Of a stretch of 64,000 nt of DNA, positions 8,669 to 24,081 are shown in pieces. The translations under genes were made by a program, and so were the position numbers. The notes under the pieces are model-generated. The model did no database searches. It was given only the letters and a program-made list of their open reading frames with translations, and was not told where the DNA came from. Positions within the stretch are counted from its first letter, which is position 1. Each line of letters begins with the position of its first letter. Location: positions 471,345-535,344 of the forward strand of contig NZ_MU078696.1 in assembly GCF_014078525.1 (NCBI RefSeq), read 5' to 3'. Source of the stretch: Nitrosopumilus sp. b3 (lineage in GTDB: Archaea; Thermoproteota; Nitrososphaeria; Nitrososphaerales; Nitrosopumilaceae).

Positions 8669-10483
8669 TTGAAGATTCGTACAAAATTAGCTCTTGGACT
8701 AGTAATAATAATTGGAATTTTTGTTACAGGTGAGTCATACAGTTCTTACTTGTCTTTTGAGATCAATTCTGTTGCTGAATATCACAATTCCATGAGCATT
8801 CCTGCATTAACAATGCTGGGAGACATTGAAACTTCATTTAACAACATGAATAATTATTTGCTTTATTACACTATTTTTCCAAACGATGCCACAAAGGATG
8901 CTTATTTTGAAGAACAAACTATCTTTCTGAATCACGTTAGTGATTATGAGACTTTAGCAAATGCAAAAAATTCGTTGGGTAATGATTTAGCTGATGATAA
9001 CATGAAAAACATGATGAATAATTATGTCGACCACTATGAAAAAATCTTTGATGATTTTATCTTAACGTCAAATGCAATAATTGGTGTTGTTGACTCTGAA
9101 AACAAAGAAGAATCTGTAACGTTAATTCAAGATTTAAGATTGATAAATGAAGATTTTCAAAATATATTGGATAAAAATTATGCCGTGGAAAATACTGGAA
9201 AAGAACTGGAACAAAATTCTATCCGTGATATCTCTGGCAAAATAACAACTTCAACTTTAATCATCAATATCCTTTTAGGATTAGCATCTATCTCTATTGT
9301 CATAATTGTTTCATATGATATATCAAAACAAGTAGGATCATTGAAACAATTAACTACACAAATTTCTAAAAGACAATACGATATTATCTCTACTCATTCA
9401 AAAAATGAGTTTGACAGCCTTAGAAATGACATTATCGAAATGGGCAATACCGTTAAATCATCTGTACAAGAACTTGAAAATTTTAGAAGGGCATTGGATA
9501 ATTCTGCAAGTGTCACCATTACTAATCCTGACGGTGTAATTACTTTTGTCAATGAACAATATTGTAAAATCTCAAAATTCTCTAGAGATGAATTGATTGG
9601 TAAAACTCACAAAATTGTGAACTCTGGATACCATCCTCCTTCATTTTTTAAAAGTATGTGGAACACTCTCAAATCTGGTGATACCTGGAGCGGTGAAATC
9701 AAAAACAGATCAAAAGATGGCTCTTTTCATTGGGGTAAAACCGTGATTACTCCTGTCATTTATGATGGAAATACCATTCATCATTTTATTGAAATTCGAA
9801 CAGACATCACACCACGAATTAAACTCCAACAGAAATTGTTAAAACAAGAAAAACTTGTCACTATTGGTGAGCTATCTGCAAGATTGGCCCATGATATTCG
9901 AAACCCTCTTTCCATTATTCAAGTATCTCTTGAAAATCTAAAATTAATGTCCAAAGATACAAAGATTGATCAAAAACATTTTGATAGAGTTGAACGTGCA
10001 ATAAATAGAATATCTCATCAAATTGAAGATGTTTTAGGATACATAAGAAACGAACCTATGCAAATTGAAAAAACAAACATGTCTGAAATAATTGCTGATG
10101 CATTAGATTCAATTAATCTTCCAAATTCAATTTATTTTGATATTTCAAAAAATGATTTTGAATTTTATTGTGATAAAAAACGACTAGCAGTAGCTCTTAC
10201 GAATCTAATTATTAATGGAATTCAGGCCATTGATGGAAAAGGTGAAATAAAAATAAACTGTGAAGACACTGTAAATGAGGTTGTAATTTCAGTTCAAGAT
10301 TCGGGAAAAGGAATTCCTACTGATCTAAAAGAAAATATTTTTGAACCTCTTTTTACTACAAAACAACAAGGAACTGGACTTGGCTTGGCAAGTGTAGCTT
10401 CTATTGTCCAAGGTCATCATGGCACTATTTCTGTAACTTCTCCGCCAACAACATTTACCATAATTCTTCCTAAAAATCCCTGA
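8669..10483 (+). CDS. Membrane sensor histidine kinase with PAS domain
   Basis: A 604-residue kinase starting with TTG. Transmembrane segment 1 is at ~7-25, an extracytoplasmic helical sensor domain at 26-~190, and TM2 at ~193-216. These are followed by a HAMP-like linker, a PAS domain (~273-380, with the YCKISKFSRDELIGKTHKIV block), a HisKA domain with the phospho-acceptor His408 in ARLAHDIRNPLSII, and a HATPase domain with DSGKGIP and GTGLGLAS. The kinase core is closely related to those of the genes at 24287 and 62733. No response regulator is adjacent. The gene lies between the aroA and aroC blocks on the opposite strand and has no obvious link to aromatic synthesis. The external signal is unknown. 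Confidence 0.93.
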   Translation: MKIRTKLALGLVIIIGIFVTGESYSSYLSFEINSVAEYHNSMSIPALTMLGDIETSFNNMNNYLLYYTIFPNDATKDAYFEEQTIFLNHVSDYETLANAKNSLGNDLADDNMKNMMNNYVDHYEKIFDDFILTSNAIIGVVDSENKEESVTLIQDLRLINEDFQNILDKNYAVENTGKELEQNSIRDISGKITTSTLIINILLGLASISIVIIVSYDISKQVGSLKQLTTQISKRQYDIISTHSKNEFDSLRNDIIEMGNTVKSSVQELENFRRALDNSASVTITNPDGVITFVNEQYCKISKFSRDELIGKTHKIVNSGYHPPSFFKSMWNTLKSGDTWSGEIKNRSKDGSFHWGKTVITPVIYDGNTIHHFIEIRTDITPRIKLQQKLLKQEKLVTIGELSARLAHDIRNPLSIIQVSLENLKLMSKDTKIDQKHFDRVERAINRISHQIEDVLGYIRNEPMQIEKTNMSEIIADALDSINLPNSIYFDISKNDFEFYCDKKRLAVALTNLIINGIQAIDGKGEIKINCEDTVNEVVISVQDSGKGIPTDLKENIFEPLFTTKQQGTGLGLASVASIVQGHHGTISVTSPPTTFTIILPKNP

Positions 10484-10685
10484 TCAAAAGATTCACTCTA
10501 ATTTTGCAAAATTGATTTTCCTTACTGGGGTTTCTTCATAATTTTCTATGTTTTTTGCTCAAAGTGAGTGTGAATAAAAATTACATAATTATCATATATT
10601 TATTGAAATAATTATAATATATTCTTAAATATAATAATTACATACACATAATATGGAAAAACGTGTAAATTATAAACCATAATTT
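10484..10685. promoter_or_regulatory. AT-rich spacer with probable promoter of the RNA at 10686
   Basis: This stretch has no plausible coding frame. Its second half (~10585-10660) is almost pure A/T and contains several ATAATTA/TAATTAT elements and TTAAATATAA at 10625-10634. A TATA box there would place a plus-strand start near 10656, about 30 nt before the RNA stem. A second TATA-like element (TTATAAAC at 10670-10677) lies too close to the stem to drive the full RNA. Confidence 0.4.
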
Positions 10686-10770
10686 GCGCGGCCCTGCGAA
10701 AAAGACATGTTATCTTCGCAAAAGCGTTGCGGGTGAGGAGAATGCTTTTCACCCTATACAGGGTCGCGCC
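10686..10770 (+). ncRNA. Candidate structured non-coding RNA
   Basis: An 85-nt GC-rich island stands out from the AT-rich surroundings. Its ends pair perfectly over 11 bp with one G-U: GCGCGGCCCTG at 10686-10696 with CAGGGTCGCGC at 10759-10769. Inside are two hairpins: TGCGAA/TTCGCA (10695-10700 with 10715-10720) and GGGTGA/TCACCC (10731-10736 with 10749-10754). AAAAGC (10720-10725) could also pair with GCTTT in the second hairpin loop (10744-10748), forming a pseudoknot. The plus strand is favoured because a T-rich run (TTTTATTCATTTTA) follows directly, as at archaeal transcript ends. It is not a tRNA and is too short for RNase P or SRP RNA. Alternatively it could be a 3' element of aroA on the minus strand, whose stop is 35 nt away. 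Confidence 0.65.
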
Positions 10771-10805
10771 TTTTATTCATTTTACTTGATTTTTTGAAAT
10801 TACTT

Positions 10806-12074
10806 TTAATTTACTTGAATTTTTCCACCAAGGCGATTCATTTCTTCTATGAAATTTGGAAATGATACATCTACTGACTCTGGATCTGATATTGTGCAAT
10901 TACCTATATACATTCCAGCAATACAAAAAGACATGAATAATCTATGATCATTTTCGGAATTTAGTACTGCTCCTTTCAAATTTTCTGACGACTCTAAGAT
11001 CAATCCATCGTCTTTTTCTTGAATTTTAATTCCTAGTTTGACAAGTTCTCTTGCTATTATTGCAATCCTATCTGTCTCTTTTAGTCTTGCATGCTTTACA
11101 TTAACTATTTCAATTGGTGCTGATGATTTTAGTGCTAAGATTGCAAGTGGTGGTAGAAGATCTGGAGAATTACTCAAATCAAATTTTCCTCCAGTTAATT
11201 TTTCAGGTGATTTGATTTTGATTTCTTCTTCATTAATCATAACAGAAACTCCCAATTGTTCTAGAATGTCTATGAACACCTCGTCACCCTGTGGCAAATT
11301 TCCTATATTTCCTTTAATTGTTATCTCATCTCCATTTAGAACAGTTGATGAAAGAAGTAGTGCAAGACTTGAAAAATCAATTGGGACAGTAAATGTTGTC
11401 TCTTTGTATTTTTGTGGTGTAATGTTATATCTTTTGTATGGAATTAATGTTTGAACAACTACCCCAAACTTTCTCATTGTAGCTATTGTTGCATCAAGAT
11501 ATGGTTTTGATACTAGATTCCCTTCAATTGTAAGATTAATCCCTTTTTCTGTTAGTGGTGCACTGATTAATAATGCTGAAATAAATTGACTAGAAAAATT
11601 CCCTGGAATCTTTACATCTCCTCCCGAAATCTTTCCTTTGATTTTGATTGGTGGTTTTCCATCAGTTGAACTACATTGTGCACCAATACTTGATAATGCA
11701 TCAAGTAATGGCTGCATCGGTCTTTTTTGCAAACTAGAATCTCCTGTTAATGTTATCTCTTCTGTAAATAGACTGGCAATCCCCGATGCAATTCGAATAG
11801 TTGTTCCTGAATTTTCGGTATTGATTTCAGGCACAATTTTATCAAATTTTATGGGATTTTTTACCATTATTGATGAATTCCCAATTTCCATTTCTGCCCC
11901 AAATTTCTTACATGCTTCTATGGTTGCAGCAGTATCTGCTGAACGTAAAATATTCTCCACTTTACTATTATTTCCAGCAAGTGATGCAAGAAAGATAGCT
12001 CTATGGGTATAACTCTTGTTTGCAGGACAAATTATTTGCCCCGAAATTTTTGACTTTTCAACCTTACACTTCAT
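10806..12074 (-). CDS. aroA: 3-phosphoshikimate 1-carboxyvinyltransferase (EPSP synthase)
   Basis: The 422-residue protein has the two-domain inside-out barrel fold of EPSP synthase. Diagnostic segments are PANKSYTHRAIFLASLA with the catalytic Lys, GNSGT-like NSGTTIRIASGIAS, LQKRPMQPLLDAL, the serine pair in GNFSSQFISALL, and the C-terminal DHRLFMSFCIAG with the catalytic Asp region PDLLPPLAILAL upstream. It condenses shikimate-3-phosphate with PEP. Its start overlaps the shikimate kinase gene by 11 nt. It is the last gene of the first shikimate block; downstream lies the candidate structured RNA. Confidence 0.96.
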   Translation of the reverse strand: MKCKVEKSKISGQIICPANKSYTHRAIFLASLAGNNSKVENILRSADTAATIEACKKFGAEMEIGNSSIMVKNPIKFDKIVPEINTENSGTTIRIASGIASLFTEEITLTGDSSLQKRPMQPLLDALSSIGAQCSSTDGKPPIKIKGKISGGDVKIPGNFSSQFISALLISAPLTEKGINLTIEGNLVSKPYLDATIATMRKFGVVVQTLIPYKRYNITPQKYKETTFTVPIDFSSLALLLSSTVLNGDEITIKGNIGNLPQGDEVFIDILEQLGVSVMINEEEIKIKSPEKLTGGKFDLSNSPDLLPPLAILALKSSAPIEIVNVKHARLKETDRIAIIARELVKLGIKIQEKDDGLILESSENLKGAVLNSENDHRLFMSFCIAGMYIGNCTISDPESVDVSFPNFIEEMNRLGGKIQVN

Positions 12075-23885: not shown

Positions 23886-23923
23886 TCGCAATCCACATTA
23901 AGCGTAAATCTCCAAAAATTTTT

Positions 23924-23998
23924 GGACTCGTTGCATAGCTTGGATAGTGCGATTGCTTGCGGAGCAATAGGTCGCCGGTTCGAATCCGGTCGGGTCCG
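23924..23998 (+). tRNA. tRNA-Arg (anticodon GCG)
   Basis: A complete 75-nt cloverleaf. The acceptor stem is GGACTCG with CGGGTCC, the D-arm GCAT/GTGC, and the anticodon stem ATTGC/GCAAT enclosing TTGCGGA, giving anticodon GCG (codons CGC/CGU). The T-arm is GCCGG-TTCGAAT-CCGGT and the discriminator is G. No intron is present and CCA is not encoded. Confidence 0.95.
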
Positions 23999-24081
23999 TT
24001 AACATTGTAATTGATTTGATTTTTTTTGAAAGTGAATCTTAAGAGAAAACCTTAATGCATATTCTGACAAGTTAGAACAGA

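Follow-up and report, generated by a model that had tools for sequence, protein, structure and literature searches.

Small RNAs that also bear an ORF are known from bacteria, the dual-function SgrS/SgrT being an example, and in leader-peptide attenuators of the trp, erm and tna type ribosome occupancy of a short 5' ORF decides between alternative helices. In archaea, small proteins encoded by sRNAs have been reported from H. volcanii and M. mazei (PMC12482152, PMC11456600), while most of the ribosome-associated sRNAs of Haloferax volcanii are without coding potential and no common fold or fixed ORF has been described for them (PMC12482152). Tan1, a 229-nt abundant structured ncRNA, is found in marine group II archaea (PMC5069720). 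The RNA considered here, encoded in a window of 64,000 nt (the whole stretch of Nitrosopumilus DNA that was analysed), has something in common with each of these. Like the dual-function sRNAs, it would be an independent small transcript joining a small ORF to a regulatory RNA domain, but its ORF is predicted to be leaderless, is fixed at nine codons and encodes a peptide that is not conserved. As in the attenuators, ribosome occupancy of a short 5' ORF would choose between helices, whereas this RNA is archaeal and predicted to be leaderless, and comes without a cis downstream gene, a regulatory codon or a stalling motif that is conserved. With the H. volcanii RNAs it shares an archaeal origin and possible ribosome occupancy, and with Tan1 the character of a marine archaeal structured ncRNA without assigned function; Tan1, by its published description, differs in its length and belongs to another phylum. 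We found no earlier description of this RNA in the open-access literature, and a leaderless nine-codon ORF placed directly before a tightly folded RNA domain is an arrangement described nowhere in the open-access literature searched.

A sequence-only reading had placed an 85-nt GC-rich structured island between aroA and a sensor kinase gene, and this placement is correct. The features of the locus are as follows.

8669-10483, forward strand, PAS/HisKA histidine kinase gene, upstream neighbour
10625-10634, forward strand, TATA-like promoter element TTAAATATAA, a box conserved in family members
10653-10682, forward strand, nine-codon mini-ORF, predicted to be leaderless, ATG GAA AAA CGT GTA AAT TAT AAA CCA TAA (MEKRVNYKP*)
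10663-10673 with 10679-10689, forward strand, 5' hairpin P0, formed by the ORF region
10686-10696 (GCGCGGCCCTG) with 10759-10769 (CAGGGTCGCGC), forward strand, closing stem P1 of 11 bp
10697-10716, forward strand, linker, including the single strand ACATGTTATC at 10706-10715
10717-10726, forward strand, hairpin P3, CGC-AAAA-GCG, 3 bp in the source genome
10731-10754, forward strand, strong hairpin P4, GGGTGAGGAG-AATG-CTTTTCACCC
10759-10796, forward strand, 3' end of the RNA with the P1 3' strand, TTTT at 10771-10774 and a longer T-run at 10791-10796
10806-12074, reverse strand, aroA, convergent neighbour

The island, with its 11-bp closing stem, is real: it stands in DNA of 11–30% GC and its forward strand (10686-10770) folds at a minimum free energy of -39.7 kcal/mol, with a z-score of -5.18, a stability that no sequence among 200 dinucleotide shuffles reached (the reverse strand scores -4.49 against dinucleotide shuffles). 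Of the two inner hairpins that had been proposed, P4 is strong, with its 10 predicted pairs retained in nearly all of 30 homologues, while P3 has just 3 bp here yet extends to 4–6 bp in relatives and covaries clearly there, with the forms ACGC/GCGT, TGCAC/GTGCA and the UUCG-capped GTACAA-TTCG-TTGTAC. Another inner hairpin, TGCGAA/TTCGCA (10695-10720), can form in the source genome and, unlike P3, is not conserved. The proposed loop-linker pseudoknot AAAAGC/GCTTTT finds no support and was rejected, as it shows no covariation: the GCTTTT strand is fixed and already paired in P4, and its supposed partner changes to GAAAGTG or AATTGCG. The linker strand ACATGTTATC is nearly invariant among Nitrosopumilus copies, in which it has no conserved pairing. 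A T-run does follow the stem, as had been noted, but immediately after it there is just TTTT, the longer run lying farther off; a T-rich tract 3' of the stem is kept in relatives, and this region is a probable termination zone. Two further coding candidates were rejected, namely a second ORF at ATGTTATC (10708), whose frame is broken in several relatives and whose ATG is missing in the divergent genus g34, and a possible Shine-Dalgarno sequence with AUG within P4 (GGTGAGGAGAATG), where several relatives have AAG instead of AUG and do not maintain the frame.

The island matches no known RNA class by Rfam and ARAGORN, in agreement with the sequence-only reading. Rfam 15 gave no match even at a permissive threshold (the best chance match reached 17.8 bits against a cut-off of 99), nor did it for the paralogues described below. 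No tRNA or tmRNA was found at the locus by ARAGORN or Rfam, the sole one being a tRNA-Arg at 23923-23999, and the RNase P and SRP RNA models (RF00373, RF01857) had no match at the locus, each matching elsewhere in the genome. No Rfam family of C/D or H/ACA guides matched, and inspection found no boxes conserved across the different types of copy.

By blastn the element is single-copy in the source genome and recurs at 81–95% identity in >30 of 59 genomes from the genus; the order's other families gave no comparable match. A covariance model built from 30 blastn homologues (R1) reached other genera of the Nitrosopumilaceae, including g34, where the genomic setting is different; named relatives with the element include Nitrosopumilus and Nitrosarchaeum. 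A second model (R2) detected further, weaker loci in most genomes, and the source genome holds three copies: the one in the window (type A) and two paralogues.

G000:C1:284018-284152, copy B, paralogue in the source genome
G000:C2:371312-371446, copy C, paralogue in the source genome

Copies B and C diverge strongly from A; their leaders barely align with it and their P0 is different. A third model (R3), built solely from B/C-type sequences without any window-type sequence, scores B/C-type copies as high as 140 bits and independently retrieves type A (E-values of 7.7e-6 and 2.6e-5). Found from both sides, with R2 leading to the paralogues and R3 to the window type, the A and B/C copies are homologous. 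Applied to 400 genomes of the class, R3 gave matches in 201, belonging to 18 of 82 genera; among the matches listed all lie within the Nitrosopumilaceae, and at useful scores no homologues were found in these genomes beyond the family, in most of which the element is present. Two copies, L093 (G131, type A) and L165 (G053, type B/C), are apparently decayed, with the P1 3' strand or the ORF lost. As far as sequence comparison goes, the family, its copies, the promoter box, the frame and length of the ORF and the helices can be regarded as established, and we are highly confident that these loci make up a family of stand-alone small RNAs in the Nitrosopumilaceae, about 120–135 nt long and not yet catalogued, with the anatomy given here. 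The earlier suggestion that a regulatory RNA outside the known classes stands alone here is supported, although neither the predicted leaderless ORF nor the 5' hairpin that competes with P1 nor the pair of paralogues had been recognised.

That reading had also made its case depend on compensatory base changes in relatives, and these are present. In an independent MAFFT alignment of 32 diverse copies, in the fitting of which structure was not used, 98.3% of P1 cells are paired and 6 of the 11 pairs are altered on both sides, amounting to 28 both-side-change cells against 9.1 expected from shuffles; sliding the partner strand by 1–3 columns reduces pairing to 20–53%. Compensatory changes support P1, P3 and P4. 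The B/C-type domain contains, besides P1 and P3, an additional helix P1b (GCAGAAC/GUUCUGC) and a P4 whose loop is of the GNAAU type, and has both-side changes in 11 of its 24 pairs (34 cells against 6.8 in shuffles). The P4 loop hairpin of the B/C copies, GAGAGGNAAUCUCUC, is nearly invariant (e.g. L118, 1589-1603) and is likely to be a docking site for a protein or RNA.

The promoter-like element noticed upstream corresponds to the TATA-like TTAAATATAA; among the members scored, TTAAATA was present in 129 and ATAAATA in 8. An archaeal TATA box is centred about 26 nt before the transcription start. The start codon of the 8–9-codon ORFs lies 26–31 nt after the box, nearly always 28–29, and in the source-genome copy 28 nt past it (10653); the mini-ORF is predicted to begin at the transcription start, and the RNA interval should be extended at its 5' end from 10686 to about 10653. 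In several archaea leaderless mRNAs are frequent (PMC4983044). At its other end the mini-ORF closes with a stop codon (10680-10682) that ends 3 nt before P1. When 141 members (homologues and paralogues) were scored automatically and the exceptions then read by eye, the automatic step returned exactly nine codons in 116 and eight in 4, with TAA, TGA and TAG as the stop in 68, 37 and 15 of the scored set, respectively. A further 8 members with ATGATG starts had been scored as ten codons, the second ATG giving nine; inspection by eye, which recovered starts at GTG or TTG and cases in which the script had taken an ATG 2–4 nt too early, raised the nine-codon total to about 132 of 141. Among the 84 window-type homologues, 83 have nine open codons (eight in two) before a TAA, TGA or TAG stop, the GTG starts passed over by the script, including that of L030, having been read by eye; L098 and L099 have lost the ATG, but their next codon is ATG. 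The one intact-looking window-type copy without a stop is L112 (G049), whose frame would run for 27 codons into the structured domain. Among B/C-type copies, a nine-codon ORF stands at the TATA-predicted start in 24 of the first 24 and in nearly all later ones. An extra subfamily in genus g31 (L187, L193, L194), with a leader that is shorter by the model, proves on reading by eye to have ATG at the TATA-predicted start and nine codons (MLVQCRMMD).

After clustering of the leaders at 80% identity, the first stop falls exactly at codon 10 in 31 of 36 clusters against 1.4 expected from dinucleotide shuffles, and 0 of 200,000 simulations exceeded 9 clusters. The models R1–R3 include the leader, so members retaining it are favoured in these counts. 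The initial 30 homologues had been retrieved by a query beginning downstream of the ATG, so that their start codons were not selected for, and ATG or GTG is nevertheless found at the start position in all 30. The gap between stop and GCG is mostly 3 or 4 nt, with a range of 2–5, and indels that are not multiples of three fall outside the ORF of 27 nt (24 in a few) and not inside it. As the stop-to-stem gap varies while ORF length is fixed, the frame is preserved solely inside the ORF.

On its own P0 folds at -12.2 kcal/mol. It shares the initial four bases of P1 (10686-10689), so in the window-type copy both helices are mutually exclusive there. In type A, 95.8% of P0 cells are paired and 4 pairs are changed on both sides. 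Column 41 of the corresponding alignment (A6) has one partner in the leader (for P0) and another in the 3' strand (for P1); where it changes from C to U in g34, both partners follow, as they do less markedly in three other lineages. In types B and C, P0 stops short of P1, has 70.8% of cells paired and covaries no better than after a one-column slide, and is weakly supported; strict exclusion between P0 and P1 is for these reasons not general. When nucleotides 1–42 were masked in the fold, P1 was abolished in all three source-genome copies.

From these features we infer transcription start, translation, gating and action in trans as parts of the following model. Each RNA would be driven by its own TATA promoter and start at or beside an AUG that opens the leaderless nine-codon ORF, with the stop 2–5 nt ahead of P1 of a compact multi-helix domain. 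The peptide would not be the product; translating itself would be the signal. Without translation the 5' end would fold as P0, which a ribosome starting on the 5' AUG would have to melt. A terminating ribosome covers about 12–15 nt beyond the stop. Given the fixed ORF length and the position of its end, it would necessarily occlude the 5' strand of P1, and the domain could close only once the ribosome has gone; in the window-type copy, closure would also need P0 to give way. Two states would result, an open one with the ribosome engaged and a folded one free of it, between which the RNA would switch; it is the folded domain that would act, in trans, via a protein or RNA partner. We tentatively favour this gating of the RNA fold by ribosome passage over a plain ncRNA and over a ribosome decoy, at a confidence that falls short of even. 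Counted against it are the weakly supported P0 of the paralogues, which does not reach P1, L112, which is without a stop, the two decayed copies and the favouring of leader-bearing members by the models. It is possible, and a little more doubtful than gating itself, that the family represents a new class of translation-gated RNA, in which a length-fixed, sequence-free leaderless mini-ORF positions the ribosome and controls folding of the 3' domain, and hence its trans activity; such a class would comprise a stand-alone archaeal small RNA kept as several divergent copies per genome.

A plain structured ncRNA with a protein or base-pairing partner, in which the AUG would be no more than the initiator, the stop no more than a piece of P0, and translation would not matter, is a serious though less probable account. 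The strong conservation of structure speaks for it, as does the fact that A-to-G stop changes in window-type copies also preserve U-G pairs in P0; yet the T of the stop is also retained in copies in which it has no P0 partner left or falls in the loop, all three stop codons are found, and nine codons recur in paralogues with barely alignable leaders and a different P0. An ORF of fixed length and free sequence would also suit a ribosome-engaging decoy, in which the RNA would be anchored through its domain and ribosomes would be loaded or parked at the leaderless AUG, tuning translation when leaderless initiation dominates. Ribosome-associated sRNAs are known in another archaeon (PMC12482152), but conserved complementarity to rRNA is not established, and we consider this reading unlikely. 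As in an ORF-bearing small RNA, a conserved ORF under its own promoter lies within a structured small-RNA gene, and one might see here a micropeptide gene with an incidentally structured 3' UTR. However, there are 95 distinct peptides of 8–9 residues and variation at the three codon positions (0.52/0.65/0.40 bits) is not concentrated at third positions, which argues that length and frame are conserved and the peptide sequence is not; the purifying selection on the peptide expected of a dual-function sRNA was not seen, and a micropeptide gene is improbable.

A cis-acting element, either a terminator or an antisense regulator of the convergent gene (aroA here), would account for the RNA 3' end adjoining a convergent gene at most loci (aroA, the gene for a secreted 143-aa protein, purP). 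Type A is flanked in most relatives by aroC and aroA, which are both encoded on the strand opposite to the RNA; aroC starts about 295 nt away, and the histidine-kinase gene of the source genome is an insertion between aroC and the RNA. Regulation of the aro genes in cis was rejected, as they are on the wrong strand and the g34 copy sits beside SIR2 and RNase Z genes instead, after a run of PRPP-synthetase-like, RlmKL/Trm-like methylase, RNase Z-like and SIR2 genes. In g34, two members are found about 8.5 kb apart on opposite strands of the same neighbourhood (L132 and L133; L089 and L085), one member of a pair adjoining a TFB gene. By our own reading of the neighbouring sequences, made without database search, type B adjoins the small secreted-protein gene and has an SDR gene in divergent orientation, purP converges on type C, and further copies lie beside TFB, CorA, wybutosine-synthesis or Fe-SOD genes. 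Neighbours thus vary by copy and genus and are mostly convergent, some copies have a same-strand gene downstream, and no downstream gene is shared among copies as it would be for a leader-peptide attenuator or riboswitch; a terminator, moreover, requires neither promoter nor ORF. The absence of a shared downstream gene makes cis regulation unlikely, more so than a decoy, and a trans-acting stand-alone RNA the better reading. A GC island within AT-rich DNA, present in several copies per genome, could finally be mobile or repeat-derived, but the copies are single at conserved sites and strongly divergent from one another, no target-site duplications or recent identical copies were seen among them, and two core patterns had no exact match in viral contigs, by which viral carriage was also rejected; a mobile origin is very hard to credit.

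Nitrosopumilaceae, marine ammonia-oxidising archaea, are among the ocean's most abundant microbes, and our searches brought up hardly any publications on their regulatory RNAs. If translation-gated folding is true, this family-restricted, multi-copy RNA would be a natural case of translation used as a physical signal and not for its product, in an RNA family open to direct testing, both with strains in culture and with marine metatranscriptomes that already exist.
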